DNA of 64,000 bases. It comes from Natrinema pellirubrum DSM 15624 (lineage in GTDB: Archaea; Halobacteriota; Halobacteria; Halobacteriales; Natrialbaceae). Of the stretch, positions 57,299 through 60,107 are shown in pieces (the stretch's first letter is position 1; every line of letters begins with the position of its first letter). The position numbers were made by a program, and so were the translations under genes. The stretch is from assembly GCF_000230735.2 (NCBI RefSeq), contig NC_019962.1, positions 1,984,001 to 2,048,000 on the forward strand, given 5' to 3'. The notes beneath the pieces are model-generated. The model did not search any database. It saw nothing but the letters and a program-made list of their open reading frames with translations, and was not told the origin of the DNA.

Positions 57299-58935
57299 AT
57301 GCCAGAGCAAAATGGCACACGGAACGGGACGAATCGGCGCGGCTTTCTCGAGAGCATCGGCACCACCTCGGTCGCTGGCGGCCTCGCGGCGGTTCTCGCC
57401 CAGCGCGATATCGTCCAGCCGGTCGCCGCGGCGTCGGCGACCGATCGGAGCGTCTTCGACATCGACGGGACAGCCGATCCCGACGCGACGTTTCCGCAGT
57501 CGGTCGCCAGCGGCGGACCGACCTCGAGCGGCGCTATTCTCTGGACGCGGATCGCCCCCAGTGCGGTCGTCTCCGAGGAGCCGATCGGTGTCCAGGTCGC
57601 GACCGACGACGACTTTGCGGACCTGGTCTACGAGGGAACGGTCCCCGCCGATCGACTCTCGAGTACACACGATTACACGGTCAAAGTCGATCTCGACGGC
57701 GTTCTCGAGTCGGATCGTCGCTACTACTACCGGTTCGTCTACGACGGCGTCGCGACACGGACCGGTCGCTGTCGGACGCTACCGGCGGCCGGCGCGAGCC
57801 CCGATTCGCTGTCGTTCGCGGTCCTGACGTGTCAGGACTACCAGAACGGGTACTACGGAGCCTACCGCCACCTCGCGGCCGAAGACGTCGACTTCGTCGT
57901 CCACCTCGGCGACTTCATTTACGAGTCCGCCGACGGTGCCTACACCTCGCCGACGACGGATATCAAGGACGGGCGCGACATCGACCTCCCCAGCGGCGCC
58001 GATCTGGCGGAGTCCCTGGCCGACTTCCGGACGCTGTATCGAACCTACAAGGGGAACGAATTCCTCCAAGAGGGACTCGAGCAACACACCGTTATTCACG
58101 GCTGGGACGACCACGAGATCGGGAACAATCGATACTGGGACGAGAAAGCGAACGCACCGGTGTTGCCGGATACGGACGGCGGCGAGCAGCCCGAGCGGGC
58201 GATGGAGATCACGGCCGACGGCATTCAGGCGTGGGTCGAGTACGTTCCCGCCCGCGTCGAGTTCGATCCCAACGAGTCGGCACTGCAGGACCAGCTCCGA
58301 CTGTGGCGGGATCTCCAGTTCGGCGACCTCGTCGATCTGACCGTCACCGACGAACGCCTCTATCGCGACGGGCCACCCTGTGGCGACGCACGGATCACCT
58401 GCACGGATGAGGAAGCGCAGGGACGGACGATGCTCGGCCACGAACAGAAACAGTACTTCACGGACTGGGTCAGCGAGTCCGATGCCGTCTGGTCGGTCTG
58501 GGCCAACGAGGTGCTGACGATGCCCCTGACCATCGGCGACAACTGGTCGCAGATCGAACTGCTCCACGACTCGTGGGACGGCTTCCAGCACGAACGCTGG
58601 GAACTCATGCAACACGTCGCGGACGTCGATCCACGCAACTTCGTCGTCCTGACCGGCGACCTCCACGCGTCGCTTGCCGGCCACGTGAAAGCCGGCTACG
58701 GCGAAATCGAGCCGTTCGAGACGTACGACCGAATCGGTGTCGAGCTGATGACTCCCGCCGTTACGAGCGTCAACGCCGCCGACGTAGTCGATTTCCCGAG
58801 TGACTGGGACGACGACGCGCTCGCGGAGTTGACCAAGGACCAAAACGACCACCTCGAGTACGTCGACTGGCATCAGCACGGCTACGCCGTCGTCGAGTTC
58901 ACCCGCGATCACTGTACGTATACCGTGTACGGCGT
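57299..58935 (+). pseudogene. phoD: PhoD-like alkaline phosphatase/phosphodiesterase, interrupted by insertion sequence
   Basis: Tat-exported PhoD-family phosphoesterase that releases phosphate from organic esters. The signal is TNRRGFLESIGTTSVAGG. A fibronectin-like N-terminal domain precedes the metal-binding core: FAVLTCQDY, DFVVHLGDFIYE, HGWDDHEIGNN, WSVWANEV and VVLTGDLHASLAG, with TYDRIGVELMTPAV. All core motifs are intact, but after TYTVYGV the gene is cut by an insertion sequence at 58936. The frame then reads about 74 foreign residues to 59158. The lost 29 residues lie at 60017-60107, so an almost complete protein may still be made. Confidence 0.9.
58926..58935. repeat. Target-site duplication, left copy
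   Basis: TGTACGGCGT immediately left of the insertion sequence, identical to 60007-60016 at the other end. It is the 10-bp host sequence duplicated on insertion. Confidence 0.8.
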
Positions 58936-60006
58936 CGAGGGTGTCATAGAACTCTTGTCACACCGTGATGATCGTGCTTCCCGGATTATCTCCTCGTTCG
59001 TAGTTGGTGATCGCAATAACGAGACGCAGACACAACGACAGGAACACTTGTGCTCGTGCATGGACGCGGCCTCGGGCGTGGACGTGCCCGAGGCCGCAGT
59101 CCTTGACTGCGTCGTTAGTTCGTTCGACGCCTGTCCGGCGGTTGTACGTCTCATCTAACGTCGATTGCTTCAACTTCACGTCCTTGCTGTGTTCTTTGAT
59201 ACGGTCTTCGACCCTGTACTCTATGTCCAGTGGATCGTCGGTGTTGCGTGCGTTGTACGGGGCGATTGGCACGACTCCTGCGGTCAGCAGGTAGTCGTGC
59301 CAATCGAGTGTGTCATAGGCGCTGTCTCCAAGCATCCAGATCGGAGTGTCGACGGCGAGCGCGTCACGCGTGACGCGCATCGCCGTCTCTTCTGGCGCTT
59401 GTTTGCTCTCGGTGAATTCCGCTGCAATCGGGATCTTTGAACCAGTCGAAACGATCGTGCAGCCGTAGCCGTAGTAGTACTCTTCAGCCGTTGGATCGTA
59501 GCATTTCGACGCGTCTTGATCGGCTGGCATCGTTCTCACGTCTGTCGAATCAATCGAGTAGGTCAAGTCGAGCAGGCCCCGCAAGGCGGCCTGCTCGACG
59601 AGGTGGTCGAAAATCTCGTCGATGACGTGTTCGAGATCGGTGAGGAAACGATCGACCGCGTCTCTCGACGGCGGTCGATCGAAGCCACAGCTGAGCCAGA
59701 CGACTGTGTTGTTCAGTTCTCGCGCAACCGGACGAATGCCGTAGATATCCTTGTAGTAGCAGTGCAGAAACCCACGCATCATCTCGGGTGGTTCGTGGTC
59801 TCGTGTTCGCCCCGTCTCCGCCGGGGCGAACACGTCGAATTCTTCGAGAAACTCGAAGGAGAGATGCTCGAACAGCGCTAGCGTCTCCGTCTCCACGGCA
59901 TTGAAGAACGTCTCTACCGTAGGATTATCTTGCAGGGTCGCTGGGCTCATACCACCTCAGCGTTCACCCTGCTCTCTGGTATGAGAACTGTTCTATGACA
60001 CCCTCG
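58936..60006 (-). mobile_element. Insertion sequence with 17-bp terminal inverted repeats
   Basis: A 1071-bp element. Its ends match as a perfect 17-bp inverted repeat, CGAGGGTGTCATAGAAC, with weaker similarity for about 12 more bases. It is flanked by the direct 10-bp duplication TGTACGGCGT. It carries one intact transposase on the minus strand, opposite to phoD. Removing the element and one duplication restores the phoD frame to a normal stop, so the insertion is recent. Confidence 0.9.
58958..59950 (-). CDS. DDE transposase of the insertion sequence (IS4/IS5 superfamily)
   Basis: A 330-residue transposase, intact from ATG 59950 to its stop. The DDE catalytic residues can be placed as Asp in YSIDSTDVRTM, Asp in WMLGDSAYDT and Glu in RTGVERTNDAVKD. 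A helical N-terminal region (TVETFFNAVETETLALFEHL) and DRPPSRDAVDRFL precede the core. I assign it only to the IS4/IS5 DDE group; the exact ISfinder name cannot be set by eye. Confidence 0.9.
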   Translation of the reverse strand: MSPATLQDNPTVETFFNAVETETLALFEHLSFEFLEEFDVFAPAETGRTRDHEPPEMMRGFLHCYYKDIYGIRPVARELNNTVVWLSCGFDRPPSRDAVDRFLTDLEHVIDEIFDHLVEQAALRGLLDLTYSIDSTDVRTMPADQDASKCYDPTAEEYYYGYGCTIVSTGSKIPIAAEFTESKQAPEETAMRVTRDALAVDTPIWMLGDSAYDTLDWHDYLLTAGVVPIAPYNARNTDDPLDIEYRVEDRIKEHSKDVKLKQSTLDETYNRRTGVERTNDAVKDCGLGHVHARGRVHARAQVFLSLCLRLVIAITNYERGDNPGSTIITV

Positions 60007-60016
60007 TGTACGGCGT
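60007..60016. repeat. Target-site duplication, right copy
   Basis: TGTACGGCGT immediately right of the insertion sequence, identical to 58926-58935. Confidence 0.8.
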
Positions 60017-60107
60017 CGACAAAGATGCGGACCCGCGGGATGCCGAGCGGTCGACCCTCGCCCGATATCGTACCCCGGACGGCGACCCGACCCTCACGGA
60101 ACTGTAG
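60017..60107 (+). pseudogene. phoD: Severed 3' end of phoD
   Basis: This stretch continues the phoD frame once the element and one duplication are removed: after GV come DKDADPRDAERSTLARYR and TPDGDPTLTEL, then TAG at 60105-60107. It has no start codon of its own. It is the clearest evidence that the preceding gene was whole before insertion. Confidence 0.85.

Follow-up and report, generated by a model that had tools for sequence, protein, structure and literature searches.

Insertion of ISH11 is accompanied by short target duplications that vary in length. Duplications of 6, 8 and 9 bp have been tabulated for this element (PMC10264941), and the ISH11 copy in arcD of an evolved Halobacterium NRC-1 is associated with a 10-bp duplication (PMC7193027). 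The ISH11 protein is named 'IS5-like element ISH11 family transposase' in the NCBI nomenclature. A known relative of the phosphatase considered here is PhoD of B. subtilis, which loses both its activity and its bound iron when the C-terminus is truncated; these truncations took away a capping helix that is absent from most PhoD proteins (PMC4223295).

The window that we analysed, a 64,000-nucleotide stretch of the Natrinema pellirubrum DSM 15624 genome, contains a phoD gene that was almost certainly interrupted by an ISH11-like insertion event, judging from the junctions and from intact relatives of the gene. The retained part of phoD (codons 1–546; 57299..58936, plus strand) is 93–98% identical to Natrinema orthologues and contains a twin-arginine-like signal (RRGFLES). 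Pfam matches above the gathering score were obtained for PhoD_N (PF16655; residues 68–160, 77.9 bits) and PhoD (PF09423; residues 173–541, 275.6 bits), and the PhoD domain stops at residue 541, ahead of the break after codon 546. The last 29 codons and the TAG stop codon are stranded on the far side of the element (60018..60107, plus strand), where they match the C-termini of the orthologues in frame, codon for codon. An earlier note on this DNA had proposed that the phoD frame is restorable, with the TAG at 60105–60107 lying 29 codons past the junction. Joining the flanks at the duplication gave exactly this result, i.e. a product of 575 amino acids consisting of 546 codons plus 29.

The same note had placed the element at 58936–60006, with perfect 17-bp inverted ends and a 10-bp direct flank on both sides. 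The ends are indeed perfect inverted repeats, but each lies one base further in. Complete copies elsewhere in the genome end at GAG...CTC, and the element therefore extends from 58937 to 60005 (58937..60005; 1069 bp, ends GAGGGTGTCATAGAAC and GTTCTATGACACCCTC), with 16-bp perfect terminal inverted repeats and a target-site duplication of 12 bp rather than 10. The C/G pair that had been counted as the 17th base of the ends is part of the target duplication, and the other copies rule out the 17-bp/10-bp arrangement. The left (58925..58936, plus strand) and right (60006..60017, plus strand) copies of the duplication, GTGTACGGCGTC, match each other exactly; the chance of a 12-bp exact flank match is ~6e-8. 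The joined PhoD product is identical under either parse of the element ends.

The element contains a 330-aa ORF for a DDE transposase with a PF01609 match (58958..59950, minus strand), transcribed antisense to phoD. This protein is colinear with the ISH11 transposase over its full length (89% identity, 330/330 residues, no gaps), which bears out the view that the transposase is intact. At the nucleotide level the element is 87.4% identical to ISH11 of Halobacterium salinarum NRC-1 with 100% coverage. From its end-to-end nucleotide similarity and conserved termini, its intact single-ORF DDE transposase and its short duplication of a type that varies in length, the element is classed as ISH11-like, IS5-like in NCBI naming. 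An NCBIfam match to IS1182 was also obtained; it fell below threshold (62 bits versus a cut-off of 270), and the nucleotide match to ISH11 was preferred. Some match to the element was found in 25 of the 29 genomes of the genus, many of these being fragments, and 52 plasmid records matched as well. A search for the transposase in phage records gave no match.

Uninterrupted phoD genes encoding 575 amino acids are present in N. mahii, N. thermotolerans, N. gari, N. pallidum and N. altunense. These five orthologues share 93–98% identity with the joined frame, and no gap appears where the alignment crosses the junction. The earlier note had stated that intact homologues ending at TVYGV would speak against its interpretation. 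None of the orthologues ends there; past this motif they continue VDKDADPRDAERSTLARYRTPDGDPxLTEL before the stop codon, ending as the joined frame does. The target sequence is present once in N. mahii, N. thermotolerans and N. gari, so that the empty site expected by the note among sister strains was found in sister species instead. In N. pallidum and N. altunense one base of the target sequence is different. Gene order is kept on both sides of phoD, and the collinearity of the flanks is clearest for N. thermotolerans and N. mahii. No insertion at the same point was found in the other genomes of the genus that have a close orthologue.

These observations are best explained by a simple sequence of events. 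An active, multicopy ISH11-like element almost certainly jumped into phoD after this Natrinema split from its sister species, and the staggered cut doubled 12 bp of the target. As the transposase gene is antisense to phoD, phoD is now read into the element, yielding a fusion without the native C-terminus. The allele as present is an ORF (57299–59158) encoding a 619-aa fusion, in which the native last 29 residues of PhoD are replaced by 73 unrelated ones. The element-derived extension (58937..59158, plus strand) consists of these 73 foreign codons, which read EGVIEL...VVRLI, and the TAA at 59156–59158.

The positions of the Natrinema protein that align with the metal ligands of the B. subtilis structure 2YEQ (C178, D205, D270, D271, N276, N277, D454 and H456) all lie before residue 546, and N277 is the only one of them that is not among the columns listed as invariant. 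The lost tail (residues 547–575) includes Y563, which is invariant in our alignment even in gammaproteobacterial relatives, as well as the near-invariant residues D547, K548 and R564. In a structure model of the intact N. thermotolerans PhoD, residues 557–566 form the last beta strand (pLDDT ~73–85); this C-terminal strand and the tail are present in the orthologues and lost in this allele. The last predicted beta strand is gone, whereas the metal-ligand positions are kept, and we consider with moderate confidence that activity of the fusion is impaired or absent. The effect of C-terminal truncation on B. subtilis PhoD points in this direction, with the limitation of the capping helix. Loss or strong reduction of activity appears somewhat more likely than full function.

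It is possible, though doubtful, that the fusion still functions as a PhoD enzyme. The Pfam PhoD domain is complete ahead of the break and every metal-ligand position is retained, so the core is complete, and the last strand might be dispensable or might be replaced by residues ~561–570. An AlphaFold model of the 619-aa fusion does contain an element-derived strand at 561–570 (SRIISSFVVG). However, pLDDT is ~70 in this segment and <50 past residue 575, and the input alignment had set 561–570 close to where the native strand aligns, a possible bias that leads us to give the predicted strand little weight. Both structure models were built from shallow alignments of 11–12 sequences, and their mean pLDDT was 62–69. 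In addition, the conserved tail residues listed above, with Y563 foremost, are missing from the fusion. The stronger version of this idea, namely that the element strand antisense to the transposase would supply a replacement beta strand and tail and thereby give rise to a functional chimeric phosphatase rather than a null allele, we consider improbable. An impaired or inactive enzyme is thus the reading that we prefer.

No second PF09423 gene and no PhoA (PF00245) gene was found in the genome, and the idea that a paralogue makes phoD redundant was accordingly rejected. One distant, partial match to PF05787 (PhoX) is present (74.7 bits), and PF05787 matches of that kind occur in 25 of the 29 genus genomes. 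PhoD is itself patchy within the genus: 14 of the 29 genomes are without a match, indicating that its absence is evidently tolerated at the genus level.

Counting related copies, the genome carries the element ~24 times, and four of the copies are at least 99.9% identical. Target duplications of nine family copies in this genome measure 12, 6, 9, 6, 10, 9, 7, 8 and 7 bp. Because the four copies are so similar, and because the two duplication copies flanking the phoD element are still identical, the insertion into phoD is probably recent, in agreement with the earlier note. Recent activity of the element is well supported, with transposition being deduced from the near-identical copies together with the empty site of the sister species.

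The patchy distribution of PhoD, which points to dispensability at the genus level, could also fit an older, fixed insertion, after which phoD would be undergoing pseudogene decay in this lineage. We regard this explanation as unlikely. Neither the retained part of phoD nor the stranded tail shows any sign of decay, and comparison with the sister orthologues gave 98% identity, with 13 non-synonymous versus 23–28 synonymous codon differences. The identity of the duplication copies and the near-identity of the element copies also argue against great age. Finally, although the element is multicopy with near-identical copies that might be misplaced inside phoD, an assembly artefact can practically be dismissed, as the junctions are exact, the clean duplication is of local sequence unique to the phoD copy, and doubling of 12 bp of target is not what one expects from a misjoined repeat.

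Several other arrangements of related elements were observed in this genome. A local cluster of seven ISH11-like copies occupies ~250 kb immediately upstream of the window (C1:1705299-1958573). Thirteen copies of a non-autonomous, MITE-like element of 151 bp, whose ends are of the ISH11 type, are located on C1, C2 and C3 (L095–L107). They are at least 99% identical, and most have duplications of 5–8 bp; the near-identity of these copies points to a recent burst. We also found a 1244-bp unit in which an ISH11-like relative, with 73% identity to the phoD element, is joined by a 23-bp linker to the 151-bp miniature element. This unit occupies three sites, C1:3098446-3099690 (L021), C1:745307-746550 (L023) and C1:300350-301593 (L024). 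The L021 site shows separate duplications for the two elements, CACCAGCC and GTAACAAC. The entire unit is found again in identical form at L023 and L024, bounded there by the outer duplications ACTTATTA and ACGTCTGCT. This pattern suggests that the unit travelled as a single composite, starting from the L021 arrangement.

Both the element family and the gene are known, and insertions of this kind are ordinary and well documented; as such the phoD case is routine insertion sequence biology for haloarchaea. What it provides is a natural allele pair, intact in the sister species and truncated here, that bears on the need for the C-terminal strand and poses the question of whether this strand is required for activity in the short, cap-less type of PhoD. 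It also illustrates how an 'intact ORF' call (619 aa, with a good Pfam score) can mask a truncated enzyme.

Natrinema PhoD has its family, fold and metal-ligand positions in common with B. subtilis PhoD (PDB 2YEQ), an alkaline phosphatase/phosphodiesterase. The intact Natrinema protein differs in that it stops just past the last strand and has no capping helix at its C-terminus; since it was this helix that was removed in B. subtilis, those truncation results are not directly transferable. The phoD element closely resembles ISH11 in length (1069 versus 1068 bp), and both have a 330-aa transposase and target duplications of variable length, whereas their nucleotide sequences have diverged by ~13% and the 12-bp duplication in phoD is slightly longer than the published 6–10 bp. 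The closest parallel to the event itself is the arcD case (PMC7193027), in which a coding gene was likewise disrupted by an ISH11 element flanked by a short direct repeat; that insertion arose during laboratory evolution, in another gene and another genus, whereas the phoD insertion was seen in a genome assembly.
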